Part shown: positions 12,634-63,339 of the stretch, in pieces | Layout of the letters: every line of letters starts with the position of its first letter | How positions within the stretch are numbered: the first letter of the stretch is position 1 | NCBI RefSeq assembly: GCF_900177245.1 | Contig: NZ_FXBM01000002.1 | Span: forward strand, 744,001-808,000 | DNA from: Rathayibacter oskolensis | Lineage (GTDB): Bacteria > Actinomycetota > Actinomycetes > Actinomycetales > Microbacteriaceae | Reading direction: 5' to 3' | DNA length: 64,000 nucleotides | Position numbers and translations under genes: made by a program | Notes under the pieces: model-generated | The model's input: the letters and a program-made list of their open reading frames with translations, nothing else | Told to the model about the DNA's origin: nothing | The model's database searches: none

Positions 12634-12759
12634 GGCGCGATCCGCACGCGTCCGGTGCGATCCGCAGGAGCGGGTGCGATCTGCGGGCGCTGCCGGCGGA
12701 AGAGCGCTCTCCGCCGCATGCACCGTGCCGGAACGCGCGCGAGCACCTGCGAATCGCAC
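12634..12759. repeat. Intergenic repeat family A, copy 1
   Basis: Direct motifs GGCGCGATCCGCACG (12634), GGTGCGATCCGCAGG (12654) and GGTGCGATCTGCGGG (12673) face an inverted copy CCTGCGAATCGCAC (12746-12759). The centre includes AGCGCTCTCC. The same layout recurs at 41317 and 63159. This copy sits between convergent genes. Confidence 0.8.
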
Positions 12760-12801
12760 GCCGCGATCCCGTCGAGGCGACCCCGCCGGGCCGCGCCCGC
12801 C

Positions 12802-14529
12802 TCAGCTCGCGCGCAGCCAGACCGTCGTGTCGCCCGGCAGCGTCGCGCCCGCCAGCTCCTCCGAGGCCAGGACGACCGAGCCGTCCGGCAGCGCCACCGG
12901 AGTCGAGCCCGTGTTCGCGATCACGACGACGCCTCCGTTGCGGAACGCGACGACCTCCTCCGGGAAGCCCTCCAGCCACTCGACGGAGCCGGCGCCCAGC
13001 CCCTCCGAGCGGCGGACGGCGAGGAGCGACCGGTAGAGCTCGAGGGTCGACCCCGCGACTCCGCGCTGGGTCTCACGGGCGTACGGCGCCCAGTCGAGCG
13101 GCTGCGGCAGCCACGACGCCCCGCCGTCGTTGAAGCGGTAGGCGGGCGCGCCGGCCTGCCAGGGCAGCGGAACGCGGCAGCCGTCGCGGCCGTAGCGCTC
13201 GCCGCTCGTGCGGAACCAGGTAGGGTCCTGTCGGGCCGAGTCGGGCAGGTCGATCGCCTCGGGGAGTCCGAGCTCCTCGCCCTGGTACACGTAGGCCGAG
13301 CCCGGCAGCGCCAGCATCAGCGCGGAGGCGGCGCGCGCGCGACGAAGGCCGAGGACCGGGTCGGGCAGGCCGGGGGTCAGCGGGCCGATGCCGTAGCCCT
13401 GCGGGTTGTCCGAGGTGAGCGCGAGGCGGCTCGCGTGCCGCACGACGTCGTGGTTCGACAGCACCCAGGTCGAGGGCGCACCCACACTCGCGAAGGCGGT
13501 GAGGGAGGAGTCGATGATGTCCCGCAGGGCGGGTCCCTCCCACGGAGTCTCGAGGTAGGCGAAGTTGAAGGCCTGGTGCATCTCGTCGGGGCGCACCCAG
13601 CGCGCGAGCTTCGAGAGCGGCTGCACCCACGCCTCCGCGCAGAGCACGCGGTCGTCGGGGTATTCGGCGAGCAGCTCGTGCCAGTCGCGGTAGATCTCGT
13701 GCACGCCGTCCTGGGCCCAGTAGGGCGCGGTCTCGGGGTCCTCGCCGTCCGCCGGCGCGATGCCTCCCATCGAGCCGCTGTCGGCGGGCGGGGTGTAGTC
13801 GGGCAGCCCGGCGGCCTTGATCATGCCGTGCGCGACGTCCACCCTGAAGCCGTCGACCCCGCGGTCGAGCCAGAACCGCAGGATCTCGCGGAAGCGCTCC
13901 CGGACCCATTCGTTCGTCCAGTCGAAGTCCGGCTGCGAGGTGTCGAAGAGGTGCAGGTACCACTGGCCCGCCGTGCCGTCCGGCTCCGTGATGCGGGTCC
14001 AGGCGGGGCCGCCGAAGACCGACTCCCAGTTGTTCGGGGGCAGCTCGCCCTCCGAGCCGCGTCCATCGCGGAAGAGGTAGCGGGCGCGCTCGGCGCTCCC
14101 CGCGGGCGCCGCGAGCGCCTCCTGGAACGACGGGTGCGCACTGGAGGAGTGGTTGGGCACGAGGTCGACGATGATGCGGATGCCGAGGGCGTGCGAGCGC
14201 GCGAGCATCGCATCGAAGTCGGCGAGGGTGCCGAAGAGAGGATCCACGTCGCAGTAGTCGGCGACGTCGTAGCCGGCGTCCTTCTGCGGGGAGGTCATGA
14301 AGGGCGAGAGCCAGATCGCGTCGACGCCGAGCTCGGCGAGGCTGTCGAGCCGGGAGGTGATGCCCGGCAGGTCGCCGATCCCGTCGCCGTCCGCATCGGC
14401 GAAGGAGCGCGGGTAGATCTGGTAGATGACCGCCGTCCGCCACCATTCGGAGCCCGGGACGCTCGGTGCCCCGGGGTCGGTGGCGGCGGAGTTCTCGGGC
14501 GCGCCGGAGAGAGCGGTGTCCAGGGTCAT
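12802..14529 (-). CDS. GH13 alpha-glucosidase (oligo-1,6-glucosidase type)
   Basis: The 575-residue product is a full-length glycoside hydrolase 13. It has the N-terminal WWRTAVIYQIYPRSF block, DLVPNHSS, the nucleophile region GFRVDVAHG (Asp about 231), the acid/base CAEAW (Glu about 299) and SNHD (358-361). This is the retaining mechanism used on alpha-1,4/1,6 glucosides such as maltose, isomaltose and trehalose-like sugars. No signal peptide is present, so it is cytoplasmic and acts on imported oligosaccharides. No sugar transporter lies beside it. ATG at 14529 gives a short extension before the conserved start, normal for actinobacterial members. Confidence 0.93.
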   Translation of the reverse strand: MTLDTALSGAPENSAATDPGAPSVPGSEWWRTAVIYQIYPRSFADADGDGIGDLPGITSRLDSLAELGVDAIWLSPFMTSPQKDAGYDVADYCDVDPLFGTLADFDAMLARSHALGIRIIVDLVPNHSSSAHPSFQEALAAPAGSAERARYLFRDGRGSEGELPPNNWESVFGGPAWTRITEPDGTAGQWYLHLFDTSQPDFDWTNEWVRERFREILRFWLDRGVDGFRVDVAHGMIKAAGLPDYTPPADSGSMGGIAPADGEDPETAPYWAQDGVHEIYRDWHELLAEYPDDRVLCAEAWVQPLSKLARWVRPDEMHQAFNFAYLETPWEGPALRDIIDSSLTAFASVGAPSTWVLSNHDVVRHASRLALTSDNPQGYGIGPLTPGLPDPVLGLRRARAASALMLALPGSAYVYQGEELGLPEAIDLPDSARQDPTWFRTSGERYGRDGCRVPLPWQAGAPAYRFNDGGASWLPQPLDWAPYARETQRGVAGSTLELYRSLLAVRRSEGLGAGSVEWLEGFPEEVVAFRNGGVVVIANTGSTPVALPDGSVVLASEELAGATLPGDTTVWLRAS

Positions 14530-14596
14530 GGCGTCAAGGATAACGGGGCACCGATCGCGTCCCCTGGCCGCGAGTGCTCTGCCCTAGGGTCGACGG

Positions 14597-14776
14597 GTGA
14601 GCGATGAGACCCCCGACGAAGCCCGAGCCCGACGTCGGAGGGCCCTGCTCTGGGTCGTGCCGCTGCTCGTCCTGCTGATCGGCGGGCTCCTGGCCGCGAC
14701 GCTCGCGATCGGCGGCTACGCCGCGCGCACGATGACGGGGGCGGCTGCGCAGGCGGCGGTGCTCACGCTCGCCTAG
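14597..14776 (+). CDS. Small single-pass membrane protein
   Basis: A 59-residue reading frame starts with GTG at 14597, just after CGACGG, and ends at TAG 14774-14776. The N-terminus is charged (SDETPDEARARRRR), and the middle is one strongly hydrophobic helix (LLWVVPLLVLLIGGLLAATL), then a short alanine-rich tail. The sequence starts 67 bases from the divergent GH13 gene and its stop codon overlaps that of mrpG on the other strand within the palindrome CCTAGG. Coding is likely from composition and topology, but the family is not recognised. Confidence 0.6.
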   Translation: MSDETPDEARARRRRALLWVVPLLVLLIGGLLAATLAIGGYAARTMTGAAAQAAVLTLA

Positions 14777-15222
14777 GCGGTCGCGGCCGGTCCGTGCTCG
14801 TCCTCGGGCTGCGGCGCGGCCGATCGCTCCACCGCCTCCTCGGAGGCGTGTCCCGACTCCGGGCCCGTCCGCGCCTGCTCGTCGGCCCGGCTCACCGCGT
14901 CGGCGAGCTCGTCGGCCACGAGGAACCCCGTCGACACGGCCTCTGCGCGGTAGGCCGCCCGCCCCACCATGTGGGCCGAGACGGGGACGGTCAGCAGCTG
15001 GAAGCCGATGACCAGCACGACGGTGCCGGCCGCGGCGAAGCCCGGATTGCGGATCGCCACCGCGAGCATCACGCAGATGAGACCGAGCACCTGGGGCTTG
15101 GTACCCGCGTGCATCCTCGAGAGGAGATCGTCGAAGCGGAGCAGCCCGATCGCCGCGACCAGCGACAGCACGGCGCCCGCGGTGACGAGCACGGCCGTGA
15201 CGACGTCCCAGAAGGCGTCCAT
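14773..15222 (-). CDS. mrpG: Mrp antiporter subunit G
   Basis: The 149-residue product is MrpG/MnhG/PhaG: three membrane segments with the conserved GLLRFDDLLSRMHAGTKPQVLG block, followed by an unusual acidic tail of about 45 residues (ADAVSRADEQ...EDEHGP). It is the last gene of the six-gene mrp operon and starts one base after the MrpF stop. MrpG is required for assembly of the hetero-oligomeric Na+/H+ antiporter in the cytoplasmic membrane. Confidence 0.93.
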   Translation of the reverse strand: MDAFWDVVTAVLVTAGAVLSLVAAIGLLRFDDLLSRMHAGTKPQVLGLICVMLAVAIRNPGFAAAGTVVLVIGFQLLTVPVSAHMVGRAAYRAEAVSTGFLVADELADAVSRADEQARTGPESGHASEEAVERSAAPQPEDEHGPAATA

Positions 15223-15223
15223 G

Positions 15224-15490
15224 TCAGTCCTCCTCGCGGTTGGCCAAGAACTTCGCGACGCTGATCGAGCCGAAGACCGCGAACAGCGCGAGGCAGAGGG
15301 CGACGGGGAGCGTCCTCGCGTGCTGGTTGACCGCCATCTCGGCGCCCAGCCCGCAGATGATCGTGGCGACCAGCACGTCGGCGGCGACGACGCGGTCGAG
15401 GATCGAGGGTCCGCGGAGGATGCGCACCAGCGAGAGCAGGGTGGCCGCGCCGAAGAGGGGCACCAGGATCCAGGCGAGCCAGTCGATCAT
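15224..15490 (-). CDS. mrpF: Mrp antiporter subunit F
   Basis: The 88-residue product has three membrane helices and the MrpF signature RGPSILDRVVAADVLV. Its start ATG overlaps the mrpE stop by four bases (ATGA), so translation is coupled. Length is normal for the family. MrpF is a small structural subunit of the antiporter complex. Confidence 0.93.
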   Translation of the reverse strand: MIDWLAWILVPLFGAATLLSLVRILRGPSILDRVVAADVLVATIICGLGAEMAVNQHARTLPVALCLALFAVFGSISVAKFLANREED

Positions 15491-16059
15491 CGAAGGGCCC
15501 CCGCCCCGTCGGCGAGGGGCCGGCTGACCCGCTCGACGTCCTCGCGCGAGCCGATGGCGCGCACGATCCGCGCCTCCGTCTCGAGCACGGTGCGGCGCAC
15601 CTCCTCGATGCGGTGGGTCTCGTCGTGCGTCACACCGAGAACGTGCAGGTAGAGCACGTTCTGCTGCGGATCGACGTCGATCACCAGGGAGCCGGGGACG
15701 AGCGAGACGGCCTCGGTGGTCCAGACCAGCATCCCCTCGGAGCGGCTGCGCAGGTGCACGGCGACGATCGCGTTGTGCACGGGGACCGGCAGAGTGACGA
15801 TCTGCCACGACACCCGTACCGAGGCGACGGCGATGTCGGCGGCGAGGCGGACGAGGAACACCACCAGGTACCAGGGGTTCACCCGGTTCGAGAACTCGAC
15901 GGGCGGGAGGTAGAAGACCCGGGTGATCAGGAGAGCGACGAGGAATCCCGAGACGATCGAGAGCACGGAGACGTCGTCCCAGAGCAGCACCCAGATGCCC
16001 ACGAGTGTGACGAACATCGCGAAGCGGTTCCAGAAGTCGACGCGGCGGCGGGGGCTCAT
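15487..16059 (-). CDS. mrpE: Mrp antiporter subunit E
   Basis: The 190-residue product matches MrpE/MnhE: N-terminal membrane helices (FVTLVGIWVLLW), the linker RVFYLPPVEF, then LAADIAVASVRVSWQIV and the cytoplasmic domain TTEAVSLVPGSLVIDVD with YLHVLGV. The start codon overlaps the mrpD stop and the stop overlaps mrpF, four bases each. MrpE is needed for full complex assembly. Confidence 0.93.
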   Translation of the reverse strand: MSPRRRVDFWNRFAMFVTLVGIWVLLWDDVSVLSIVSGFLVALLITRVFYLPPVEFSNRVNPWYLVVFLVRLAADIAVASVRVSWQIVTLPVPVHNAIVAVHLRSRSEGMLVWTTEAVSLVPGSLVIDVDPQQNVLYLHVLGVTHDETHRIEEVRRTVLETEARIVRAIGSREDVERVSRPLADGAGALR

Positions 16060-17651
16060 CGGGGCCCCTCCTCTCCGAAGGACGAGTCGCGGTAGACCGT
16101 CGCGATGTAGGTGGCGGGGTCGGCGATCGCTGCGGCGGCGTGCTCGCTCGCGTCGTAGAGCGGTCCGGCGCCGACGGTCAGGACGACGCTGACGAGCACC
16201 ATCCCGGCGGTCGCGAGCACCATCATCGGGGGCGAGTGGCGCGTTCGGACCGTTCCGGTGTCGTGCGGGTCCTCCTGCAGCTGATCGATCAGGGGCGACT
16301 CGTAGCCGGGCACCTCCTCCTGGCGGCGCCAGAACGCCATGTTCCAGACACGGGCGACGGCGTAGAGGGTGAGGAGCGAGGTGACCGCTCCGGCGCCGAT
16401 CACGGCCCAGATCAGCCAGTCCGGCTGCTCGACGGCCGACTCGGCTCCGGCGACGAAGAGTCCGACCTTGCCGAGGAACCCGGTGAACGGCGGGATCCCA
16501 CCGAGGTTCATCGCGGGGATGAAGTAGAGCAGGGCGAGCAGGGGCGAGGCCTTGAGGAGCCCGCCGAGCCGGAGGATCGAGGTCGTCCCTCCGACGCGCT
16601 CGATCAGACCCGTCGCGAGGAACAGCGTCGTCTGCACGGTGATGTGGTGGATCACGTAGAAGATCGTCGCCGCATAGCCCGCCTGGGTGCCGATCGCGAT
16701 GCCGAAGACCATGTAGCCGATGTGCGAGACCAGGGTGAACGAGAGCATCCGCTTGATGTCGGCCTGCGCCACGGCTCCGAGGATCCCGACGACCAGGGTG
16801 AGCAGAGCCACGACCAGGAGGACCTCGGTGAGCGCGCCCCCGGGGAAGAGCAGCGTCTCGGTGCGGATGAGCGCGTAGACGCCGACCTTGGTCAGCAGGC
16901 CCGCGAACACGGCGGTGACCGGGGCCGGAGCGGTCGGGTAGGAGTCGGGGAGCCAGAACGACAGCGGGAAGACCGCCGCCTTGATGCCGAAGCCCAGCAG
17001 CAGCATCACGTGCAGCACCAGCTGCACATCGGCGGGGAGCTCGGCGATGCGGATCGAGAGCTGCGCCATGTTGACGGTTCCCGTGGCTCCGTAGAGCAGG
17101 CCGATCGCCGAGAGGAAGAAGACGCTCGAGACCAGGCTGACGACCACGTAGGTCGTGCCCGCCCTGATGCGCGGCGCGGTGCCGCCGAGGGTGATCAGCA
17201 CGTAGCTGGCCGCGAGGAGGATCTCGAAGCCGACGTAGAGGTTGAAGAGGTCGCCCGCGACGAAGGCGTTGAGGATGCCCGCCGAGAGGATCAGGTACGT
17301 CGGGTGGAAGATCGTGACCGGTGTCTCGCGATTGCCGTCGACGAGGCCCTGGCCGACGGAGAAGAGGAGGACCCCGAGCAGCGTGATCGAGGTGATCACG
17401 AGCATCAGAGCCGACAGCGGATCGACGACGAGGACGATGCCCCACGGCGGCTCCCAGCCGCCCACGTAGACCGCGCTGCCGCCTCCGTCGCCCGTGAGGA
17501 CGATCACCAGCATCACGGAGGAGATCACCAGGACGGCCGAGAGCGTCACGATGTTGACGAGGATCTGAGCGCGGCGGTGGCGGCCCAGGATCAGCGCGAC
17601 CGCCGCCCCCAGCAGGGGGAGGGTGACGACGAGGGGGATCAGCGCGGTCAT
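16056..17651 (-). CDS. mrpD: Mrp antiporter subunit D (NuoN/NuoM-like)
   Basis: The 531-residue product is a 14-helix proton-translocating subunit related to complex I NuoM/N. Recognisable blocks include FNLYVGFEILLAASYVL with the conserved Glu, GIKAAVFPLSFWLPDSYPTAPAPV with the key Lys, ADIKRMLSFTLVSHIGYM and PPFTGFLGKVGL. It works with MrpA in exchanging cytoplasmic Na+ (or K+) for protons. It is coupled by 4-base overlaps to both neighbours. Confidence 0.95.
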   Translation of the reverse strand: MTALIPLVVTLPLLGAAVALILGRHRRAQILVNIVTLSAVLVISSVMLVIVLTGDGGGSAVYVGGWEPPWGIVLVVDPLSALMLVITSITLLGVLLFSVGQGLVDGNRETPVTIFHPTYLILSAGILNAFVAGDLFNLYVGFEILLAASYVLITLGGTAPRIRAGTTYVVVSLVSSVFFLSAIGLLYGATGTVNMAQLSIRIAELPADVQLVLHVMLLLGFGIKAAVFPLSFWLPDSYPTAPAPVTAVFAGLLTKVGVYALIRTETLLFPGGALTEVLLVVALLTLVVGILGAVAQADIKRMLSFTLVSHIGYMVFGIAIGTQAGYAATIFYVIHHITVQTTLFLATGLIERVGGTTSILRLGGLLKASPLLALLYFIPAMNLGGIPPFTGFLGKVGLFVAGAESAVEQPDWLIWAVIGAGAVTSLLTLYAVARVWNMAFWRRQEEVPGYESPLIDQLQEDPHDTGTVRTRHSPPMMVLATAGMVLVSVVLTVGAGPLYDASEHAAAAIADPATYIATVYRDSSFGEEGPR

Positions 17652-18148
17652 CGCTCCTCCTTCCTGTCATCGGTCATGGCGCTCTCGCCGTGCTTGGACG
17701 CCGTGCCCTCGTCGCTCGCCTCGAGCAGATCGTCGAGCGCCCTGTCGTCGGCGGTGGTCTGCGCCGAGATGCCGGCCGCGTCGGCGCGGACGGAGGTGTC
17801 GGTCTCGTCGTCCTCGACCTGGTCGGCGTTGGCGAGGCGCCAGCGCCGGTAGATCATCGCGAGGAGGAACGCCGAGACTCCGAACGTGATCACGATCGCC
17901 GTCAGGATCAGGGCCTGGGGGAGCGGGTCGGCCATCTCGTCGGCGATCTGCTCGTAGGAGCGGCCGTCGTCGGTCACGAAGGGCGCGAGACCCGCTCGCC
18001 CCGCCATCAGCAGGATCAGGATGTTGGTCGCGTTGCCGATCAGGAGGAACCCGATCAGGATCCGGGTCAGGCTGCGCTCGAGCATCTGGTAGACGCCGGC
18101 GGCGTGGAGCACCGCCATCACGACGACGAGGACGAGGGTGACGCTCAT
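17648..18148 (-). CDS. mrpC: Mrp antiporter subunit C (NuoK-like)
   Basis: The 166-residue product resembles NuoK/MrpC: three helices with YQMLERSLTRILIGFLLIGNATNI and DPLPQALILTAIVITFGVSAF. It carries a C-terminal extension of about 45 acidic residues (VEDDETDTSVRADA...), longer than in most homologues. Start and stop codons overlap the neighbouring mrp genes by four bases. Confidence 0.94.
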   Translation of the reverse strand: MSVTLVLVVVMAVLHAAGVYQMLERSLTRILIGFLLIGNATNILILLMAGRAGLAPFVTDDGRSYEQIADEMADPLPQALILTAIVITFGVSAFLLAMIYRRWRLANADQVEDDETDTSVRADAAGISAQTTADDRALDDLLEASDEGTASKHGESAMTDDRKEER

Positions 18149-21100
18149 TCGTCTCCCCGCCCGGGTCCGCCGACGACCGTCGCTCCAGTGGGCAGCTTCG
18201 TCTCGAGTCCGTCGACCGTGCCGGCACCGGGCCCGGGGGAGTCGCCGTCGGTCGAATGGGTGACGCCGTCGCCGGAGGACTCACCGCGCTCGGCCTCCTC
18301 ACCGTGGCGGTCGACCTCGCCGCCGAGGCTCCGGAGGATGTCGAGGGCCAGGCCGATCACGATGAAGTAGACCCCGATGTCGAAGAGGGTGGAGGTGCCG
18401 ATGTGCAGCTCGCCCAGGATCGGCACCTCGAGGTCGAGCCAGCTCGACTCGAGCACCTGGAGTCCGAAGACGAGCGACGACACCGCGGTGCCGACGGCGA
18501 AGAGGAGACCCAGGCCCAGCACCTTGCCGGCGTCGATCGGAGCGGCCTCGCCGAGCTCGAAGCGTCCGCCGGCGAGATAGCGGGCGACCAGGGCGAGACC
18601 GGCGAGCAGGCCGCCCGCGAAGCCTCCGCCCGGGGTGTTGTGACCCGTGAAGAGCAGGTAGACCGAGACGATCATCGCGGGGTGGAACAGGAGGCGCACC
18701 AGCACCTCGAGCACGATCGAGCGGTTCTCGGGGCGCAGCGTCCGCCCGGCGACGAGCCACGAGCCGCGGTCACCGCTCTGCTCGGCGTCCTTCGCCGGGG
18801 CGGTGAGGTCGAGGGCGCGCTCGGCGCGGTCGGCGGCGCTCTGCGACTCGAGGCGGGGCGCGCCTCCGGCCCTGCTGGAGAGGAAGATCAGGCTCGCGAC
18901 ACCCGTCGCGACGACGACGAGGACCGAGATCTCGCCCATCGTGTCCCAGGCGCGGATGTCGACGAGCAGGACGTTGACGATGTTGCGCCCCTGCCCCTCC
19001 TCGTAGGAGAGGCGGGGGAGCTCGGCCGAGATGGGCGTCGCCGTGCGGGCGCCGAGGGCGATCGTCGCGACGACGGCCATGACGGCGCCGACCGCGATGC
19101 CGATCACCGCGCGCAGGCGCTTGCGCATCGGCTGGTGCTTCGCGGCGATCCGGGTCGGGAGTCGCCGCAGGACGAGGACGAAGACCACCAGGGTCACCGT
19201 CTCGATGAGCGCCTGAGTGAGGGCGAGGTCGGGGGCACCCTGGAGGGCGAAGAGGGCGACCATCCCGTAGCCGGTGCCGCCCGCGAGCAGGACCGCGGCC
19301 ACGCGGTTGCGGGCGACCGCGCAGAGGATCGCGGCGACGATCATCACGGCGGCGACGGCGAGCTGACCGGGGCTGTCCCAGAACACGAGCTCGTCGGGCC
19401 AGGTGCGGGTGAACGCCGCCGCACTGCCGGCGCCGCCGACGAAGACGGCGAAGATCACTGTGAGGTAGCGGGGGAGCGAGCCGCGCTGCACGAACTCGGT
19501 GACCGTGCTCGCGACCCGGTCGAGCCAGCGCACGGTGGCCCAGTAGCCCTCGGCCGAGTCGATGCGGTTCGGCAGCATCGACTGCGCCTTCGCGACGGCG
19601 ACCCGCTTGGCGAAGAGGAGGAGGCCGATCGCGATCACGAGGGCGCTGAGACCGAGCGCCGGCTCGAAGCCGTGCCAGAGGGCCAGATGGTAGGTGCCGT
19701 GCTCGGCCAGGGCCTCGGCCGCGAGCACGGGGTCGGCGTCGGCGGCCGCGAGGGGCAGGGTGTCGGCGTAGACGGCGCTGAGCGGATCGAGGACCGACGC
19801 GGCGACGCCTCCCACGACGCTCACCGCGGCGAGCACGACGGGAGCCGCGGTGAAGGCCCACGGCTCGGCGTGCAGGTGCGTGTCCTCGAGGCCCTTCTTG
19901 CGGGCGAAGGCGCCCCAGAAGAAGCGGGCCGAGTAGGCGACGGTGAGGATCGAGCCCAGCACGAGGCCGACCAGGGCGATCCAGCCCCAGACCGAGCCCT
20001 GCTCACCGGCCCCGAGGAGGCTCGTGAAGACGGCCTCCTTGGCGACGAAGCCGAGCAGCGGCGGGATCCCCGCCATCGAGAGCACGCCGATCAGCGCGGC
20101 GGCCGCGAGCACCGGTGCCCGGCGGCCGATCCCGCTGAGCTTGCGCAGGTCGCGGGTGCCCGCCCGGTGGTCGACGATACCGACGACCAGGAAGAGCAGG
20201 GCCTTGAACAACGCGTGGCCGAGGAGGAGGGTCAGCCCGGCGAGAGCTGCGTCCCGCGAGCCGAACCCGACGGCGACCGTGAGGAAGCCGAGCTGGCTGA
20301 CGGTGCCGTAGGCCAGCACGAGCTTGAGGTCGTACTGGCGGAGCGAGCGCCAGCCGCCGACGAGCATCGTCCACACACCGACGCAGACGATCACGGGCAG
20401 CCAGACGGCGTCGTCGGCGAAGCCGGGCGCGAGGCGCGCGACGAGGTAGATGCCCGCCTTGACCATCGCCGCGGCGTGGAGGTAGGCGCTGACCGGGGTC
20501 GGCGCGGCCATCGCGGCCGGCAGCCAGAAGTGGAACGGCACGAGGGCCGACTTCGAGAAGGCGCCCAGCAGGACGAGCACCAGGGCGACCGAGACGATCG
20601 GGCCCGACGGGGCCGCCGCGACGATCCCCTCGAGACTCGTCGTCCCGGCCTGGACCACGAGGATCACGACTCCGACGAGCATCGCGAGCCCGCCGAGCGT
20701 GGTGACGAGCAGGGCCTGCAGGCCGGCTCCCCTGCTCTCCTTGCGGCCGCTGTAGTGCCCGATCAGGAGGTAGGAGAGGACGCTGGTCGCCTCCCAGAAC
20801 ACGAAGAGGATGATCACGTCGTCGGCGGTGACCAGCCCGTACATCACGCCGGCGAAGGCGAAGAGGAGCGCGGCGAAGCGGCCGAGCGACGGCTCGTCCC
20901 GCCGGAAGTAGCTCGCGCAGTAGACGAGCACGAGGGCGCCGACCCCGCTGACGACGAGCGCCAGCACCATCGAGAGGGCGTCGAGGCGGAACGAGAGGGC
21001 GACGTCGAGCGACGGGATCCACGGGACGCTCTCGCGGATCTCGCCTCCGTCGAGGACGGTCGGCAGCGAGGACGCGGTGGCGACGAAGGTGCCCGCCGGG

Positions 21101-21198: not shown

Positions 21199-21309
21199 CA
21201 CATGTTCCTCCCAAGGCATACTCAGCGCGGTCGCACGACAAGGGTAACGGAGGGGTGCGCGGCCGAAGCTGAGTGCCCGGAGGGTTGCCGGGCGCCGTAT
21301 CTTCGGGGC

Positions 21310-22212: not shown

Positions 22213-22214
22213 TT

Positions 22215-22239
22215 CGGAGCCGGTCCCGGCCCGGCTCCG
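22215..22239 (+). terminator. Hairpin after the beta-propeller gene
   Basis: CGGAGCCGG and CCGGCTCCG form a 9-bp perfect stem with a 7-base loop two bases after the stop codon. Confidence 0.6.
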
Positions 22240-22294
22240 CGCGGTCGGCTCGATCGGGTGGTCACGGTTCGTGGAGCGGGGTGCGCTCGCCGAC

Positions 22295-22320
22295 GGGGAA
22301 GCGCTGCGACGCGCTTCCCC
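22295..22320. other. Perfect 10-bp inverted repeat in a gap
   Basis: GGGGAAGCGC-TGCGAC-GCGCTTCCCC is a perfect stem in the 250-base gap before the aldo/keto reductase gene. It lacks a T-tract and could be a second terminator or a protein-binding site. The rest of this gap shows nothing recognisable. Confidence 0.5.
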
Positions 22321-23787: not shown

Positions 23788-23790
23788 TCT

Positions 23791-41316: not shown

Positions 41317-41440
41317 GGTGCGATCTGCGGGTGCTCGTGCGATTCGCAGGAATCGGTACGGTCTGCCAGCGATCGAGGCGAGCAAGCGCTCTCCTGAGCC
41401 AGGTGTCGGCCGGAGAAGCAGGATCTCCTGCAGATTGCAC
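41317..41440. repeat. Intergenic repeat family A, copy 2, in a 381-base gap
   Basis: The gap 41247-41627 has no gene. Direct motifs GGTGCGATCTGCGGG (41317) and GTGCGATTCGCAGG (41337) face the inverted copy CCTGCAGATTGCAC (41427-41440). The centre contains AAGCGCTCTCC, as in copy 1. It lies between the nusG terminator and the rplK promoter region. Confidence 0.8.
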
Positions 41441-41464
41441 CGGCACCTGCGGCAGGAGTCGCCC

Positions 41465-53582: not shown

Positions 53583-53592
53583 GCGCCGGCAC

Positions 53593-53660: not shown

Positions 53661-53668
53661 CGGGGCGC

Positions 53669-54049: not shown

Positions 54050-54093
54050 GCGGCAACCCTACCGGCGCCCGGTCGAGCGCCTACCCTGGAACG

Positions 54094-55399: not shown

Positions 55400-55436
55400 C
55401 GGAGGGGGACGAGCAGGGTCCGACGGCGCGTCGGGC

Positions 55437-55943: not shown

Positions 55944-56070
55944 GCCGTCATTCTCGCCGAGCTCGAGTCCGGGCGGCGTGAGGAGCCCCGCGCGCCCGTC
56001 GACCAGCACGGCGGTGATCGAGCGCAGGGGTCCGCAGCCCGCTGTCGGTGCGCACGGCTAGGGTTCGGCC

Positions 56071-56796
56071 ATGCCCACGAGCGATGAGACCTGGACCCTG
56101 GCCGACCACGACGTACCCGTCTACCGCAGCGGAGAGGGCGAGCACGCGCTCATCCTGATCCACGAGGTCTGGGGGGTCGACGGGCACATCCGCTCGGTGG
56201 CCGATCGCTACGCGGCCGAGGGCTTCCGCGTCGTCGCACCCGAGCTGCTCGCCGAGAGCGGCCTGCTCGAGCAGCTCGACACCGAGCAGCGCGCCGACTA
56301 CGACCACCCGGTCCGGAGGCTGCCCCGCCAGGTCGAGCTGCGCACCTTCTTCGCGCCGGTCTTCACGCCCGAGCACTCGCAGCGCTCCGTCGCGATCCTC
56401 CGGGCACTGGTGAGCCGGCTGCTCAGCGAGGACGGCGTCCTCAGCGTCTCGGTGACCGGCTTCTGCTACGGCGGGACCTTCAGCTGGGCGCTGGCGCTCG
56501 CCGAGCCGCGTCTCGCCTCCGCCGTGCCGTTCTACGGGCACAACACCGCCTCCGCCGACGAGCTGGCCGCTCTCGACGTCGCGGTGCTCGCCTTCTACGG
56601 AGACCAGGACGCGCCCCTGATGGCGCAGGTCCCGGGCATCCGGGAGGCGACCGCGGGCGAGGACGTCGAGCTCGTCGTCTACCCGGGTGCGGGTCACGCG
56701 TTCTTCAACGACGCCAACGACGGCACCTACGACGCGGCGGCGGCGACCGACGCGTGGCCGCGCGCCCTCGCGTTCCTCCGCTCGCACGCGATCTGA
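56071..56796 (+). CDS. Dienelactone hydrolase family protein
   Basis: The 241-residue product is an alpha/beta hydrolase with a Cys nucleophile: VTGFCYGGTFSW (Cys about 132), an Asp in AFYGDQDAP and His in VYPGAGHAFFND. ALILIHEVWGVDGHIRSVADRYA carries the Glu that tunes the Cys. The family opens dienelactones in aromatic catabolism, but many members have other esters as substrates. No aromatic-degradation genes are nearby. Confidence 0.9.
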   Translation: MPTSDETWTLADHDVPVYRSGEGEHALILIHEVWGVDGHIRSVADRYAAEGFRVVAPELLAESGLLEQLDTEQRADYDHPVRRLPRQVELRTFFAPVFTPEHSQRSVAILRALVSRLLSEDGVLSVSVTGFCYGGTFSWALALAEPRLASAVPFYGHNTASADELAALDVAVLAFYGDQDAPLMAQVPGIREATAGEDVELVVYPGAGHAFFNDANDGTYDAAAATDAWPRALAFLRSHAI

Positions 56797-56819
56797 CGCA
56801 CTCGACGATCCGGCTCCGC

Positions 56820-56876
56820 CTGCTGATCGAGTAGCCCGCGGAGCGGATACGCCCTGCAGGGCTGCTCGACCAGCAG
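56820..56876. repeat. Intergenic repeat family B, copy 3
   Basis: CTGCTGATCGAGTAGC (56820-56835) and GCTGCTCGACCAGCAG (56861-56876) are inverted repeats (14 of 16). Between them lies CGGATACGCC. ATCGAGTAGC and CTCGACCAGCAGGC match the ends seen at 38119. It lies between convergent genes. Confidence 0.7.
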
Positions 56877-56896
56877 GCCGGCGAGCGGAGCGGGTG

Positions 56897-57568
56897 TCAG
56901 GCGACGTCCTTCACGTGCCCGCCCTTGATGTGCAGGCGGCGCTGAGCGCGGCGAGCGACGGCGGAGTCGTGCGTCACGATCACCAGGGTGAGACCGAGAT
57001 CCTTCCAGAGCGTCTCGAGCAGCGTCATGATGTCGTCGCGGGTGTCCTCGTCGAGGGCACCGGTCGGCTCGTCGGCCAGCAGCACCTTCGGGTTCTTCAC
57101 CAGTGCGCGGGCGATCGCGACGCGCTGCTGCTGGCCGCCCGAGAGCTCGGCGGGCAGGTGATCGAGCCGGTCCGCGAGCCCGACGGAGGCGAGCGCCTCC
57201 TTCGCGCGCGCGGCCCGCTCGGCCGACGGGATGCGCTGGGGAGCGAGGGCTGTCTCGACGTTCTCGAGCGCCGTGAGCGTCGGGATCAGGTTGAAGCTCT
57301 GGAAGACGATCCCGACGTCCTTCGCCCTGACCTCGGCCAGGCGGCCGTCGCCGGCCGACGAGATCTCGTTCTCGCCGAGCACGACGGTGCCGGAGGTCGG
57401 CCGGTCGAGGGCGCCGAGCATCTGCAGGAGCGTCGACTTGCCGCCTCCCGTCGGGCCTTGGATCGCGACCATCTGGCCGTCGGGGATCGAGAGAGTGACG
57501 TTCTTCAGCGCCGTGACCTTCGTCTTGGATCCGTCGTAGCTCTTGCTGACGTTCGTGAGGGTGTACAT
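56897..57568 (-). CDS. MacB-like ABC transporter ATP-binding protein
   Basis: The 223-residue product has Walker [10 protein letters not shown], the Q-loop [18 protein letters not shown], signature [15 protein letters not shown] and Walker [16 protein letters not shown], the LolD/MacB pattern. It pairs with the FtsX-type permease encoded 32 bases upstream. Such pairs act as mechanotransmission exporters or in signalling rather than classic transport. ATG 57568 gives the standard [11 protein letters not shown] start. Confidence 0.93.
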
Positions 57569-57600
57569 GTCGGTGTCCTTCGTGTCGAGGGTGGGTCGGC

Positions 57601-59061
57601 TCAGCCGACGGAGCGGAGTGCGGCGGCGGGGCGCAGGCGCGAGGCGCGCCAGCCTCCGATCGCACCGGCGAGGAGACCGCCGAGGATCGCGAGTCCGACC
57701 GCGAGCAGGATCACCGGGACGGTGATCGGCAGCGACAGGGCGATCTCGGTGGCCGTGGCCGTCTGCGCGGCACCCGGGCCTCCGCCTCCGAAGCCGCCGC
57801 CGGGGCCCGCCGCCGCCGTGGTCGTCGCGGAGGTGCCGGAGAGCGTCGGTGCGATGCCGTTCACGATGGCGATCCCCGCGAGGCCGATGACGATTCCGGC
57901 GGCGCCTCCGATCAGCCCCTGCACGACCGACTCGCCGGCGACCTGGCGCACGATCGAGCCGTTGGTCCAGCCGATGGCCTTGAGCGTCCCGAACTCCCGG
58001 GTGCGCCGGGTGACCCCCGAGATCGTGAAGAGCGTCGCGATCAGGAACGCGGCGGCGAGGACCAGGAGCGAGAGCCAGGTGCCCAGGCTCGAGACCAGGT
58101 CGCCGGCGGTCGACAGCGAGCCCGAGACGGAGGAGGCGAGGTCGGACTGCGTCGAGACGGTGTTGTCGGGGAGGGCCGTCTCGATGTCCGACTGGATCTG
58201 GGCGATGTCCTCGGAGGAGGCGGCCTGCACGTAGACCGACGAGATCATCCCGTCCTGGCCGGCGAGGGTCTGCGCGACGTCGAGCGGGATGTAGGTGTCG
58301 GAGGCGGTGCTCGCGTCGGTCGAGTCCGAGGTGACGATCCCGATCACGCTGAACTCGGTCCCGCCGATGTCGAGGGTCGAGCCGACCGAGAGCTCGGCGG
58401 TCGTGGCGTAGGAGGAGTCGATCACGACCACGTTCTGCCCCGCGTCCTCGGCGGTGAAGGTGCGGCCGTCGGTGAGGCTCACGTCGGCCAGGGGGCCGAT
58501 CGCCGAGCCGGCCGGGTCGAGCCCGAGCACCGAGAACGAGTCGACGTCGAAGGAGGATCCGCCGGCTCCGTCGGGTCCGCCGGAGGGCGCCTCGCCGGAC
58601 TGGTCGGCTCCGGGAGCGGCGCCCGAGCCCATCTGGCTCATGTCGGGCAGCTCGCCGTTGAAGGTGGTGTTGCTCAGCGAGAGAACGCCGATCGCGGTCT
58701 GCACGTCGTCGACTCCGAGGACCGTGTCGACGGCGGAGGCGTCGAACGTCGCCGTGCCGGGGTCGGCCGCGAGGCGGGACTGGTTGACCGAGGTCGTGCC
58801 GCCCTCGGTGGTCCCGTCGGACGAACCGAAGTCGAAGCGCTGCCCGCCGCCCTCGGTCGGGGCCTCGGCGGCCTGGGTGACGGTGATGTCGGTGCCGACT
58901 CCGTAGACGGACTCGAGGACGGAGGCCTGGGCGTTCTGCACTCCGGCGGCGAACGAGTTGACGAGGATCACGAGGGCGATGGCGAGCGCCATCCCGGCGG
59001 CGATGATGACGGTCTGCCGTCGCCGATTGGTGAGCTCTCGCCTGAGGTAGGTGGCGAACAT
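57601..59061 (-). CDS. MacB/FtsX-like ABC transporter permease
   Basis: The 486-residue product has one N-terminal helix (TVIIAAGMALAIALVILVNS) and a large extracellular MacB-core domain of about 290 residues with a Gly/Ser-rich insertion. Three C-terminal helices form the FtsX domain (LLVLAAAFLIATLFTISGVTRRTREFGTLKAIGWTNGSI region, quoted in part). A Gly/Ala-rich loop (GPGGGFGGGGPG) lies between the last helices. It is first in the two-gene unit with the ATPase. No signal for the cargo is seen. Confidence 0.9.
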   Translation of the reverse strand: MFATYLRRELTNRRRQTVIIAAGMALAIALVILVNSFAAGVQNAQASVLESVYGVGTDITVTQAAEAPTEGGGQRFDFGSSDGTTEGGTTSVNQSRLAADPGTATFDASAVDTVLGVDDVQTAIGVLSLSNTTFNGELPDMSQMGSGAAPGADQSGEAPSGGPDGAGGSSFDVDSFSVLGLDPAGSAIGPLADVSLTDGRTFTAEDAGQNVVVIDSSYATTAELSVGSTLDIGGTEFSVIGIVTSDSTDASTASDTYIPLDVAQTLAGQDGMISSVYVQAASSEDIAQIQSDIETALPDNTVSTQSDLASSVSGSLSTAGDLVSSLGTWLSLLVLAAAFLIATLFTISGVTRRTREFGTLKAIGWTNGSIVRQVAGESVVQGLIGGAAGIVIGLAGIAIVNGIAPTLSGTSATTTAAAGPGGGFGGGGPGAAQTATATEIALSLPITVPVILLAVGLAILGGLLAGAIGGWRASRLRPAAALRSVG

Positions 59062-59307
59062 CTGTTCCTTCGATCGGTCTGAGACGGTCCCGGAGCCGGG
59101 ACGCGGGGGAGGGAGCGGGGTGGTCCGCTCGATGGCCGACCGTAGGGGCGGGGTCTAAGCGCCCCCTTGCGCCTCCCTATGGGTCGACGATGACGCCGGC
59201 ACCCGCCTCCCGGGCCGCGGCGGGGGTTCCCCGGCGGCTGCCGCGGGCCTAGGCTCGCGCCCACGGAACGAACGGACAGCTGCAACGAACCGACGGAGGC
59301 GCCGATC

Positions 59308-60744
59308 ATGACTGCGACACGCGAGACCTCCGCTCCACCCGAGTTGAAGAGGGTCCTCGGCCCCAAGCTCCTCCTCCTGTTCGTCGTCGGCGACATCCTC
59401 GGCACGGGCATCTACGCCCTGACCGGTCAGGTCGCCGCCGAGGTGGGAGGCGCGGCCTGGCTGCCGTTCGTCATCGCGTTCGTCGTCGCGACGCTGACGG
59501 CCTGCTCCTATCTCGAGCTGGTGACCAAGTTCCCGCAGGCGGCAGGTGCGGCCCTCTACGCGCACAAGGCGTTCGGCATCCACTTCGTCACGTTCCTGGT
59601 CTGCTTCACGGTGATGGCGAGCGGGATCACCTCGGCGAGCGCCGCCTCCGGGGCGTTCGCGAGCAACTTCGCCCTCGGCTTCGGTCTGGGCGACGGCGCG
59701 GGGACGCGCCTGCTCATCGCGCTCGTGTTCATGGTCTGCATCGCGCTGGTCAATCTGCGCGGAGTCGCGGAGAGCGTCGGCCTGAACGTCGTGCTCACCC
59801 TGATCGAGCTCTCGGGTCTGCTGCTGGTGATCTTCGTCTGCTTCTTCGCCGTGTTCGGCGGTCAGGCCGACTTCTCGCGCGTGGTCGTCTTCGAGGGGCC
59901 GGAGGACAAGTCGCTGCTGCTCGCGGTCAGCACGGCGACCTCGCTCGCCTTCTTCGCGATGGTCGGCTTCGAGGACTCGGTGAACATGGCGGAGGAGACG
60001 AAGGAGCCCAGCCGCATCTTCCCGAAAGTCATGCTCACGGGTCTCGCGATCACGGCGGTCGTCTACGTGCTGGTGTCGACCCTCGCGGTCGCGATCGTGC
60101 CGGTGGGCGACCTCGCGGGCAACGACACTCCGCTCGTCACGGTCGTCGAGGCGGCGGCGCCGGACTTCCCCATCTCGACCCTGCTGCCCTTCATCTCGCT
60201 CTTCGCGGTGGCGAACAGCGCCCTGATCAACATGATGATGGCCAGCCGCCTGCTCTACGGGATGAGCAAGCAGGGCGTGCTCCCGCCGTTCCTGCGGAAC
60301 GTGCTGCCCGGCCGGCGCACGCCGTGGGCGGCGATCCTCTTCACCACCGTCATCGCGCTGCTCTTGACCGCCTACGTCTCGCGCGATCCGTCCGACCCGA
60401 TCGTGGTGCTGCTCGGAGGGACTACGTCGCTGCTGCTGCTCGCCGTGTTCGCCGTCGTGAACGTCTCGGTCCTCGTCCTGCGGAAGCAGCCGGTCGAGCA
60501 CAGCCACTTCCGCACGCCGACCGTGCTGCCGGTGCTCGGCGCGATCGCGTGCCTCTACCTCGTGCTGCCGATCACGTCGGGCCGCGATCTCGCCCAGTAC
60601 GAGATCGCCGGGGTGCTGCTGGTCGTCGGGGTGCTGCTGTGGTTCGCGACCTTCATCGACCGGAGGGTGCGCGGCTACGCGCGATCGGCGGTGGTCGAGG
60701 AGCCGGAGGCGCTCGAGTCGGCCGATCCCGCGAAGGATCGCTGA
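59308..60744 (+). CDS. APC family amino acid permease
   Basis: The 478-residue product is a 12-helix APC transporter. Helix 1 holds FVVGDILGTGIYALTGQVAA, a substrate-binding GxG(I/V) unwound region. EEETKEPSR appears as MAEETKEPSRIFPKVML, and ASRLLYGMSKQGVLPPFL lies in the second half. It carries amino acids or related amines by proton or exchange coupling; specificity cannot be read. The 246-base divergent gap to the MacB permease holds a GGGGCG/CGCCCC inverted repeat at about 59145 and nothing else recognised. Confidence 0.92.
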   Translation: MTATRETSAPPELKRVLGPKLLLLFVVGDILGTGIYALTGQVAAEVGGAAWLPFVIAFVVATLTACSYLELVTKFPQAAGAALYAHKAFGIHFVTFLVCFTVMASGITSASAASGAFASNFALGFGLGDGAGTRLLIALVFMVCIALVNLRGVAESVGLNVVLTLIELSGLLLVIFVCFFAVFGGQADFSRVVVFEGPEDKSLLLAVSTATSLAFFAMVGFEDSVNMAEETKEPSRIFPKVMLTGLAITAVVYVLVSTLAVAIVPVGDLAGNDTPLVTVVEAAAPDFPISTLLPFISLFAVANSALINMMMASRLLYGMSKQGVLPPFLRNVLPGRRTPWAAILFTTVIALLLTAYVSRDPSDPIVVLLGGTTSLLLLAVFAVVNVSVLVLRKQPVEHSHFRTPTVLPVLGAIACLYLVLPITSGRDLAQYEIAGVLLVVGVLLWFATFIDRRVRGYARSAVVEEPEALESADPAKDR

Positions 60745-60834
60745 GCCGGGACCGCTCGGCCCCTTCGGTTCCCCACAGGGACGGCATCGGCCGGACATAG
60801 CCTGCTCATAGGAAAGTCCCGATACTGGGGAGAC

Positions 60835-61593
60835 ATGAGCATCCCAGCCCCCTCGAAGCACCTCGCCTCCGCGCAGCGCACCCGACTCAAGCGCGCCGAC
60901 GGATCACCGATCCGCGTCCTCGTCGTCGACGACGAGAGCACCCTCACCGACCTGCTGCAGATGGCGCTCCGCTACGAGGGCTGGGAGGTGCGCACCGCGG
61001 CGGAGGGGCGCGCCGCGATCACGATCACCCGCGAGTTCCGTCCCGACGTGATCGTCCTCGACGTGATGCTCCCCGACATCGACGGGCTGCAGGTGCTCCA
61101 GAGGGTCCGCGCCGACGGGAGCGCGACGCCGGTGCTCTTCCTCACGGCGAAGGACGCCCTCGACGACCGCATCGCGGGGCTGACGGCCGGCGGAGACGAC
61201 TACGTCACCAAGCCGTTCTCGCTCGAGGAGCTCGTCGCCCGGATGCGCGGTCTCATCCGCCGCTCCACCCTGCTCGCCAACGACGTCGACGACCCCGAGG
61301 TCGTCGTCGGCGACCTCGTCCTCAACGAGGACAGCCACGAGGTCCGCCGCGGCGACACCGACATCGAGCTGACCGCGACCGAGTTCGAGCTGCTGCGCTT
61401 CCTGATGCGCAACCCTCGGCGCGTGCTGAGCAAGGCGCAGATCCTCGACCGGGTCTGGTCGTACGACTTCGGCGGCAAGTCGAGCGTGGTCGAGATCTAC
61501 ATCTCCTACCTCCGCAAGAAGATCGACGCGGGCCGCTCGCCCATGATCCACACCGTGCGCGGCGCCGGCTACATGCTGAAGCCCGCGGAGTAG
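60835..61593 (+). CDS. OmpR-family response regulator
   Basis: The 252-residue product has a receiver domain (about 24-140: VLVVDDESTL, the phospho-Asp in VIVLDVMLPD, Thr in LFLTAKD, Lys in YVTKPFS) and a winged-helix output domain (about 155-250: IELTATEFELLRFLMRNPRRVLSKAQIL, quoted in part; VEIYISYLRKKID; HTVRGAGYMLK). It is paired with the kinase gene that starts on its last base (TAGTG). The N-terminal 23 residues are an extension. Confidence 0.95.
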   Translation: MSIPAPSKHLASAQRTRLKRADGSPIRVLVVDDESTLTDLLQMALRYEGWEVRTAAEGRAAITITREFRPDVIVLDVMLPDIDGLQVLQRVRADGSATPVLFLTAKDALDDRIAGLTAGGDDYVTKPFSLEELVARMRGLIRRSTLLANDVDDPEVVVGDLVLNEDSHEVRRGDTDIELTATEFELLRFLMRNPRRVLSKAQILDRVWSYDFGGKSSVVEIYISYLRKKIDAGRSPMIHTVRGAGYMLKPAE

Positions 61594-63149
61594 TGGCAGC
61601 GGATCGCGGGCGGGCCCGGCCGACGCTCGGCGACTTCGCCACCCGCTCGGCGCTCCGGCGCTCGCGCGGCGGGCGTCGGTCTCCGTGGACGCTCCGGCGG
61701 CGGATGGTCGTCGCGGTCGTCGCGATGGTCGCCGTGACCGCGGGGATCGTGGGCGCCGTCAGCGTGCTGTCGCTGCGCGGGATCCTCTACGAGAGCACCG
61801 ACTCGCAGCTGAGCGACTCGCTCACCCGCCTCCAGAACTTCGACGGCCCGACTCAGTTCGCGGGGCCGAGCGCGATCGAGCGGGCGACGACCTGCCCGAG
61901 CGGATCGTTCGGCAACGGGCCCAGCCAGGACCTCAGCACCATCACCGCGGTGCGGGAGTCCGACGGATCCTTCGTCGGCGCGTACATCGACGCCGCCGAC
62001 ACCTGCCAGCAGTTCACCGACCCCGCCGATTCGGTGCTGAACGCCGCCGTCACCGCGGGTGGCGACGAGGTCACGATCGAGCTCCCCGGCGAGCTCGGGG
62101 AGTACCGGGTCCGCGCGACCGCGGTCGACGGCTCGGTCGTCGTCGTCGGAGTGCCCCTGGGCGAGGTCAGCGAGACGCTCCGCTCGCTGACGCTGGTCGT
62201 CCTGACGGTCGTCCTCCTGGCGATGATCCTCGTCGCCCTGATCGCGACCGCGATCATCCGGGTGGCCCTCCGGCCGCTCGAGCGGGTGGAGGCGACCGCG
62301 ACCCGCGTCGCCGAGCTGCCCCTCGAGCGCGGCGAGGTCGAGCTCGTGGAGCGCGTGCTCGAGGAGGACGCCGACACCCGCACCGAGGTCGGCCGGGTGG
62401 GCGCCGCGTTCAACCGCATGCTCGACCACGTCGGCGGGGCTCTGGAGGCGCGCCAGGCGAGCGAGAACAAGGTGCGGCAGTTCGTCGCCGACGCCTCGCA
62501 CGAGCTGCGCACCCCGCTCGCCGCGATCCGCGGCTACGCCGAGCTGCCCCGCCGGAGCGACGTCGAGCTGCCGGAGGCCGCGACCTACTCGCTCGACCGG
62601 ATCGAGTCGGCGGCGACCCGGATGACCTCCCTGGTCGAGGACCTCCTCCTCCTCGCGCGCCTCGACGAGGGACGCGACCTCGAGAAGGAGCCTGTCGATC
62701 TGACCATGGTGCTGATCGAGGCGGTGTCGGACGCGCACGTCGCCGGACCCGACCACGAGTGGGACCTCGACCTCCCGGAGGAGCCGCTCGAGATCCGCGG
62801 CGACGGCTTCCGCCTGCACCAGGTGGTCGCGAACCTGCTCCGGAACGCCGCCGTGCACACGCCTCCCGGCACCCGGGTCGTCGCGGCGCTCGCCGAGGAG
62901 CGCGACGAGCGCGGGCTGCCGATCGCGGTGGTGACGGTCACCGACTCCGGACCGGGGATCGACCCCGCGCTGGTGCCGGTGCTGTTCGAGCGGTTCGCGC
63001 GCGGCGACTCGTCGCGTGCCCGCACGACCGGCTCGACGGGCCTGGGGCTGGCGATCGTGTCGGCGGTCGTCGACGCGCACGGCGGGCGCGTGCTCGTCGA
63101 GTCGGAGCCCGGGCGCACGAGCTTCCGGGTGGAGCTGCCGGCGGGCTGA
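61593..63149 (+). CDS. Sensor histidine kinase
   Basis: The 518-residue product has a charged N-terminus, helix 1 (about 38-60, VAVVAMVAVTAGIVGAVSVL), an extracellular sensor of about 125 residues with two Cys (TTCPSG, DTCQQF), helix 2 (about 195-220) and a HAMP linker (ALRPLERVEATATRVAEL). The H-box is ADASHELRTPLAAIRGYAEL, and the ATPase has the N-box VVANLLRNAAVHT and G-boxes DSGPGID and TGSTGLGLAIV. The two extracellular Cys may form a disulfide. The stimulus is unknown. GTG 61593 overlaps the regulator stop. Confidence 0.95.
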   Translation: MAADRGRARPTLGDFATRSALRRSRGGRRSPWTLRRRMVVAVVAMVAVTAGIVGAVSVLSLRGILYESTDSQLSDSLTRLQNFDGPTQFAGPSAIERATTCPSGSFGNGPSQDLSTITAVRESDGSFVGAYIDAADTCQQFTDPADSVLNAAVTAGGDEVTIELPGELGEYRVRATAVDGSVVVVGVPLGEVSETLRSLTLVVLTVVLLAMILVALIATAIIRVALRPLERVEATATRVAELPLERGEVELVERVLEEDADTRTEVGRVGAAFNRMLDHVGGALEARQASENKVRQFVADASHELRTPLAAIRGYAELPRRSDVELPEAATYSLDRIESAATRMTSLVEDLLLLARLDEGRDLEKEPVDLTMVLIEAVSDAHVAGPDHEWDLDLPEEPLEIRGDGFRLHQVVANLLRNAAVHTPPGTRVVAALAEERDERGLPIAVVTVTDSGPGIDPALVPVLFERFARGDSSRARTTGSTGLGLAIVSAVVDAHGGRVLVESEPGRTSFRVELPAG

Positions 63150-63158
63150 GGCGCTGAC

Positions 63159-63339
63159 GTGCTCGATCTGCAGGTGCTGGTGCGATCTGCAGGAGATCAG
63201 GCCGAGATCACCCGTTCTGCCGCATGACCACGCACCGAACCGCCCCTGTCTCCGGCAGACGGCACCGACGCCTGCAGATCGCACTGACGCCTGTAGATCG
63301 CACCGCCGCCTGCAGACCGCACCGACGCCTGCAGACGGC
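63159..63339. repeat. Intergenic repeat family A, copy 3, with 19-bp array
   Basis: Direct motifs GTGCTCGATCTGCAGG (63159) and GGTGCGATCTGCAGG (63179) face an inverted series CCTGCAGATCGCAC at 63271, CCTGTAGATCGCACC at 63290, CCTGCAGACCGCACC at 63309 and CCTGCAGACGGC at 63328. The inverted copies are spaced exactly 19 bases. The element fills the 205-base gap between convergent genes. Confidence 0.85.

Follow-up and report, generated by a model that had tools for sequence, protein, structure and literature searches.

What are the three intergenic repeats with inverted ends in a 64,000-nucleotide stretch of the Rathayibacter oskolensis genome (assembly GCF_900177245.1, contig NZ_FXBM01000002.1, positions 744,001 to 808,000; hereafter the window, with coordinates counted from its first letter), and what could they do behind the genes where they lie? 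An initial annotation, made from the letters of the window, had described these sites as an element family. All three were found to be present and to belong to a single family, larger than had been claimed, and each is one module consisting of a 14-mer, a centre and an inverted 14-mer. With a probability of roughly 40%, we propose that the module is a bidirectional protein-docking boundary, i.e., a platform for DNA binding at the 3' ends of genes. Genomes and loci are cited below by our handles (G and L numbers, respectively).

The repeated unit has the consensus 14-mer GTGCGATCTGCAGG, extended inward by NGATCC. The two inner 14-mers face each other across a centre of 57–58 bp, shorter than the 60–90 bases given initially. 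In a scan of 80 distinct cores that covered distances of 70 to 73, the 14-mers stood at 71 in 43 cores, at 72 in 33, at 73 in three and at 70 in one, i.e., 71 or 72 in 76 of the 80; one of the cores (L160, 1786) is probably false and another (L253) is doubtful. An open scan with a 13-mer over distances of 15–150 was applied to unselected stretches, comprising 400 kb each of G016, G002 and G017 plus the window. In both G002 and the window, the highest peaks fell at the base distance plus multiples of 19. The result for G016 was mixed: its top value, 141, came from a single locus in which the base distance occurs as well. No peak was seen in the G017 stretch. Extra copies of the unit follow outward at 19 bp: this spacing was found in 30 of the 43 neighbouring same-strand pairs at most 40 bp apart in the unselected stretches (G016 11/16, G002 13/15, window 6/7, G017 0/5). 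Pooled over all loci the figure was 272/326, which is biased, as many loci had been fetched with a 19-bp pattern. Each side carried between 1 and 12 copies, often in unequal numbers left and right. Most loci were fetched by motif patterns, many of them demanding the 19-bp spacing, and the sample is thus biased towards good copies. In one locus of G016 (L331, 2116–4577) a short forward array was observed about 2.2 kb from a full module, with only a 46-aa open reading frame (ORF) called between them.

As a whole, the centre is not self-complementary. Its symmetric complementarity was 0.31 at distance 71 (39 cores) and 0.34 at distance 72 (33 cores), compared with 0.35 and 0.41 for mixed pairs. 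After iterative orientation of 112 cores the centre appeared polar, one half reading.GATCCGcGCggGAa.GCGCtTtCc.CCG and the other half being plain; the former half includes an off-centre box, a palindrome close to GGGAANGCGCTTTCC. The word AGCGCTCTCC, which had been noticed as shared by the centres of two sites, is the window version of this box; taken alone it shows no excess in the window, where 10 matches with at most one mismatch were counted against 17 expected. The side on which the box lies was considered as a determinant of array growth and rejected (44 versus 47).

Site 1 lies between convergent genes for an M23 peptidase and an alpha-amylase. In its left array (12634..12687, forward strand) the motif scan placed three copies in forward orientation, at 12634, 12654 and 12673; the inner one is that at 12673, and one of the steps is 20 bp. 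A 58-bp centre (12688..12745, forward) with the box GGAAGAGCGCTCTCC at 12698–12712 separates it from a single inverted right copy (12746..12760, reverse strand) at a 14-mer distance of 72. Site 2, in the nusG/rplK interval, has a left array (41317..41369, forward) with copies at 41317, 41336 and 41355, of which the inner one is decayed, a 57-bp centre (41370..41426, forward) with AGCGCTCTCC at 41385–41394, and a single inverted right copy (41427..41441, reverse) at a distance of 71. The window NusG shares 98% identity with those of Rathayibacter sp. VKM Ac-2754 and Leaf185. Site 3 is flanked by convergent genes for a histidine kinase and a GFO/IDH-type protein. Two copies at 63160 and 63179 (inner) form its left array (63160..63193, forward), the box in the 58-bp centre (63194..63251, forward) is decayed, and the right array (63252..63342, reverse) contains five inverted copies at 63252, 63271, 63290, 63309 and 63328, in exact 19-bp steps. 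The initial layout of direct copies on the left and inverted copies on the right is confirmed, and the copies form 19-bp arrays of 3+1, 3+1 and 2+5 (left plus right). Single 15-mers with at most three mismatches were only moderately in excess in the window (22 versus 11.8 expected). It is the clustering and phasing, in 19-bp tandems and inverted pairs at a fixed distance, that stands out, and not the single words.

Genes were called with a custom codon-usage script, and the position of 72 loci was assessed. Convergent genes flanked 35 of them, same-direction genes 31 and divergent genes four, one locus was unclassified because it lay at a locus end, and one overlapped a called ORF. Thus, 70 of the 72 were intergenic, and the ORF-overlapping one is probably a false core. 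The convergent share (35 of 70 classified loci) was significantly higher than the 176 of 1081 adjacent gene pairs in the three 400-kb stretches (odds ratio 5.1, Fisher p 4e-10), and divergent sites were depleted (p 0.017). Convergent modules were found 2–95 bp from stop codons (median 23). For the 31 same-direction loci, the median distance of the module was 39 bp to the stop of the upstream gene and 102 bp to the start of the following one. The intergenic placement is a property of the phased, paired form alone: single words with at most two mismatches are commoner in genes than in modules and lie mostly inside genes, a count made without a chance expectation.

The family is not limited to the three copies of the window. 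A tandem pattern gave 102 matches over 14 genomes of relatives, 7 of the 14 being positive, and tandem pairs were found in 11 of 15 genus-group genomes, with 0 matches for a reversed control pattern. G003 and G017 carry single-copy modules and gave no tandem-pair match, and no modules were found in the outgroup genomes G009 and G010. In a family sample of 398 genomes a strict pair pattern matched seven, namely six Rathayibacter and G375; the pattern is incomplete, as it matched six of the eight Rathayibacter bearers in this sample, and absence elsewhere is unproven. In an order sample it matched three of 396, namely G375 and two singletons in whose flanks the motif did not continue, leaving one species with modules outside the genus in the two samples. 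The genome of G375 is 2.5 Mb in size, with about 74% G+C in the two loci read. The loci read contained seven cores, five at a distance of 73 and two at 84/85, which is about one helical turn longer, and no 19-bp array. The strict pattern was absent from 25 sister species of G375 (1 of 26 genomes with the pattern). With site 3 as query, no match was found among plasmids or phages. The matches in IMG/VR comprised 41 single exact ones and five loose pairs, with 0 for the tandem pattern. The singles look like chance, as judged without one-by-one inspection, and the flanks of the five pairs did not continue the motif. A phage, plasmid or viral origin was rejected. No RAYT gene (Y1_Tnp, PF01797) was detected in the 15 genus genomes, that of the window not being among them, and the same search was positive in five of 14 control genomes; the initial remark that no transposase or RAYT gene lies nearby thus holds for RAYT, and other transposases were not searched.

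A tree of four gene pieces divided the genus into four clades, with some weak nodes (lowest support 31): clade A (window, G001, G002, G018), clade B (G003, G008, G017, G019), clade C (G005, G007, G016) and clade D (G004, G006, G015). Occupancy of orthologous loci was wide and not universal. Sites 1 and 3 were each occupied in 10 of 14 sequences with the window counted, i.e., in 9 of 13 other Rathayibacter genomes. In the nusG–rplK comparison, which left out G015–G019, the module was present in the window, G004, G005 and G006, decayed in G007, and absent from G001, G002, G003 and G008. Orthologous centres clearly exceeded background in clade B, in clade D and, at site 3, in clade C; they did not do so in clade A, nor in clade C at the locus of gene X described below. 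Between clades, centre homology was mostly within background, and one pair (G002–G005, site 3) exceeded the background maximum. Orthologous ends were better conserved than centres (0.89 versus 0.72 in clade B). Among 104 cores, which are a sample and not whole genomes, all listed pairs (score at least 22) with a centre identity of at least 0.79 came from the same locus or had homologous flanks on both sides, and non-homologous pairs reached 0.77 at most. Modules and their units duplicate locally, are inherited where this could be judged and are lost, with no recent dispersal in the sample. Consequently, the mobile element resembling a MITE (miniature inverted-repeat transposable element) or REP (repetitive extragenic palindrome) that was suggested initially finds no support as far as recent mobility is concerned, as the 104 cores contained no dispersed similar copies. 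Older dispersal may have taken place, because centres diverge quickly, and modules may have been gained repeatedly and independently at the same places, because centre homology is mostly within background between clades, and is so within clade A as well. Inversion of the centre by a recombinase was dropped, as the best orthologous matches were direct, not inverted, once the loci had been brought into a common orientation.

The letters of the unit shift by clade. Position 3 was G in 40 of 42 copies in clade A, C or T in 21 of 22 in clade B, G in 14 of 18 in clade C, and A in 32 and G in 22 of 56 in clade D. Position 15 was G in 2/42, 0/22, 17/18 and 40/56 copies of clades A to D, respectively. 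These counts include orthologous and duplicated loci, so the copies are not independent. Position 15 was free in both tandem search patterns, and position 3 was fixed in the first (14-genome) pattern and free in the genus-wide one. A clade-wise shift of this kind is expected if the preference of a trans-acting protein drifts.

Copy number and neighbouring repeats varied as well. One orthologous module in three clade D species (L127, L138 and L288), with centres 95–98% identical, carries 6, 5 and 7 copies on one side and one on the other. It behaves as a fast copy-number marker, and the 5, 6 and 7 copies at one locus of three related species suggest a use in typing. A second palindromic repeat, CTGGTCGAGTAGCC...GGCGTATCGAGACC, more homogeneous than the module, was seen at gene ends in G017 (L234–L253). 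It forms 36 clusters in the 400 kb of G017, 0 in G016, two in G002 and no full one in the window, where a degenerate relative lies near 56819–56878; at site 3 of G003 it stands in place of the module of other species. In the outgroup G010, other palindromic repeats were found at the same intergenic places (L196 and L212), e.g., GGGTTGCCGTTTCTTTGAC and its inverse in L196, which suggests that the niche at gene ends is occupied by different repeat families.

The conserved object looks like DNA rather than RNA, since the two ends do not covary and the centre is not self-complementary. Left and right inner variable letters agreed at 0.656, compared with a within-genome permuted mean of 0.642 (84 cores; the observed value was reached in 80 of 1000 permutations). 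Fifteen modules from genomes without assignment were treated as a single group in the permutation. An exception to the usual left–right disagreement was observed in G375 (L317, 1824), where the variant end GTCCGAAATGCAGGAGT is mirrored perfectly on both sides at a 14-mer distance of 84. The centres folded like their shuffles (z −0.00, 0.49 and 0.50 for site 1, site 2 and a 51-base part of site 3, respectively). When sites 1 and 2 were folded as a whole, they surpassed their shuffles on either strand (z −1.6 to −3.3), because their ends are inverted. No terminator-like stem-loop with a T tract was matched at the three sites, and no Rfam family reached gathering level there. Six module loci gave three microRNA-type Rfam matches only (E 0.38–0.6), far below gathering scores. 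The terminator that had been offered as one option is thus disfavoured in its hairpin form.

The rigid paired spacing, together with the drift of the word by clade across loci, argues for a trans-acting DNA-binding protein over a recent transposon or an RNA hairpin, and the placement behind genes leads us to infer a boundary function. A putative sequence-specific protein of Rathayibacter would bind each 14-mer with its inward NGATCC. As the inner sites are about 72 bp apart, near seven helical turns, the bound proteins would lie on one face of the DNA and could bridge over the centre, where the off-centre palindromic box may hold a second protein. The outward 19-bp copies would lengthen the protein array. 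Placed behind genes, the structure would probably form a boundary in both directions, acting as a roadblock or insulator that stops transcription or supercoils before they reach the neighbouring gene. This prediction agrees with the protein-binding module listed among the initial options. A wider proposal, rather unlikely as it stands, is a genus-specific boundary system in which facing arrays on one DNA face, seven turns apart, grow outward in 19-bp steps by local duplication and not by transposition, and in which the word drifts by clade across loci together with its trans-acting protein; in its boldest form, a DNA-nicking protein such as the product of gene X would drive the growth.

Gene X lies between thyX and dapA and combines an AbiEi-type winged helix with a DUF559/MTES_1575 nuclease-like domain (Vsr/PD-(D/E)XK-like). 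It gave weak AbiEi matches in PADLOC and no NCBIfam match. The loci with X were L329 (2103–3365), L332 (2037–3482), L328, L330, L379, L385 and L388. In all seven Rathayibacter genomes with X at thyX–dapA, modules were found on both sides of it, and none of the six genomes without X has an intact module there, with one relic in G007. Array pairs about 1 kb apart in four genomes, considered as an autonomous element with a gene between arrays, were resolved into two modules around X. Raw tandem counts were 0, 25, 40, 43, 53, 69 and 120 in genomes with X and 0, 3, 8, 18, 20 and 71 in genomes without it. X was kept as a weak lead only, because its presence and that of the arrays were mismatched genome by genome.

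Several observations weigh against the protein-docking boundary. The sole candidate for a cognate binding protein is X, which is weak. The module is missing from 4 of 13 Rathayibacter genomes at site 1 and from 4 of 13 at site 3, and is therefore not essential there. In six of the eight empty cases the interval, including flank, is only 14–50 bp. The 19-bp arrays are lacking in the 400-kb stretch of G017 (0/5 neighbour pairs). Core detection required ends near the consensus, which inflates end conservation and undercounts decayed copies, such as the relics seen in L048 and G007. At site 2, a hairpin that by eye resembles a nusG terminator precedes the module, although the terminator scan gave it no score. 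Finally, the polarity of the arrays, which would favour the boundary, is a weak signal: at same-direction loci, 100 copies faced the upstream gene versus 63 others (p 0.04), and at thyX–X–dapA the larger arrays mostly point outward from X on both sides, not following transcription. The idea that array sizes follow transcription thus has no support at that locus and was rejected.

The module could instead be an old non-autonomous MITE-like transposon, in which the 14-mers would be transposase-binding ends, multiplied as in some transposons, and the length would be set by a synaptic complex, the transposase having been lost or acting from elsewhere. Inverted ends, fixed length and intergenic bias are in line with such an origin, as are the absence of the module from some orthologous loci and its scattered occurrence in another genus, where a single species has it (1 of 26 genomes by the strict pattern), and centres diverge too fast for an old dispersal to show. 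On the other hand, the listed pairs of similar centres among the 104 cores all trace back to shared loci or homologous flanks, and a variable outer boundary with a fixed inner one is the opposite of the arrangement at a transposon end. Between nusG and rplK of G002, which is the best empty site, about 7 bp takes the place of the module, with diverged flanks and no clear target duplication by eye. Site 3 had no match in plasmids or phages, and the IMG/VR matches look like chance. Taken together, we regard this origin as somewhat unlikely. A role in DNA topology, in the manner of bacterial interspersed mosaic elements (BIMEs), would mean that gyrase or a nucleoid protein is recruited by the module at places where positive supercoils accumulate from converging transcription. 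The enrichment at convergent and 3'-end positions is as expected for such sites, and PMC3733652 describes the REPs that lie at the 3' ends of E. coli ORFs as gyrase targets that may relieve supercoils. However, one would hardly expect clade-specific letters in the sites of an enzyme as conserved as gyrase, and the module is confined to one genus and one other species in the samples searched and missing in several species at sites 1 and 3, which makes this role distinctly unlikely.

A bidirectional RNA hairpin formed by the inverted ends, acting as a terminator or as a stabiliser of mRNA, would account for the position of the modules behind genes and for the better folding of whole sites 1 and 2. 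It is improbable in view of ends that do not covary beyond genome bias, centres that fold like shuffles, left and right arrays that differ in number, and the lack of terminator-like matches at the three sites. Very improbable, in our opinion, is a nuclease-linked system in which X binds and nicks the 14-mers and repair brings about 19-bp growth and homogenisation. X does unite DNA-binding and nuclease-like domains, and it co-occurs with its flanking modules at thyX–dapA (seven genomes with both, 0/6 intact without X), but a single deletion could take X and both modules together. Moreover, 71 tandem matches were counted in G002, which lacks a close X, and 0 in G017, which carries X. The X of G018 contains a stop, and the outgroup G010, which has no modules, possesses an X-like gene (41% identity) between thyX and dapA.

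Gene-end repeats are usually explained either as RAYT-driven mobile hairpins or as RNA elements. The module family fits neither well, given the lack of recent dispersal in the sample, the rigid spacing, the missing covariation of the arms and the clade-wide drift of the word. If the protein were found, the family would offer a tractable case of a protein co-evolving with its many sites, and could be used to test if converging genes in bacteria are kept apart by boundaries built of protein.

Among known systems, the REP/BIME repeats resemble the module in their short palindromic units, many copies, intergenic placement at 3' ends and proposed protein targets; in excerpts of PMC3733652, those associated with RAYT (GTAG-REPs) are intergenic and mostly lie between same-direction or convergent genes. 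The module genomes differ from this picture in having no Y1/RAYT gene (0/15 genus genomes), and instead of a compact imperfect hairpin of 20–40 bp the module consists of two 14-mers at a distance of 71/72 bp, with a centre that is not self-complementary and with arrays extending outward at 19 bp. The CGTC-tagged REPs, likewise dispersed palindromic repeats, are described in the same excerpts as lacking a dedicated transposase (PMC3733652). In contrast to them, the module is a spaced pair whose ends do not covary, and no CGTC hairpin was noticed, none having been searched for. With MITEs the module shares inverted ends round a short non-coding centre, facing 14-mers being present in every core by construction of the search; it differs in its diverged centres, variable outer boundary and lack of dispersed sister copies in the 104-core sample. 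Streptococcal BOX elements are modular intergenic repeats whose inner unit can multiply, whereas in the module it is the outer units that multiply, on both sides and facing inwards. Plasmid iterons and the Sal boxes of rDNA are direct repeats of about 18–22 bp bound by one protein. Unlike them, the modules occur at many chromosomal loci as facing pairs at a fixed distance. The motif string was not found in the library of papers searched. Its nearest mention, in an excerpt of a report from mBio 2018 (PMC6113626), is a palindromic repeat of about 75 nt in Rathayibacter, with 99 copies in R. festucae, 15–50 in other isolates and 19 in R. toxicus. Genus and copy scale agree with the module, the likeness being one of text description, as the excerpt gives neither sequence nor anatomy (PMC6113626), and this repeat may be the module family or, instead, the second palindromic family.

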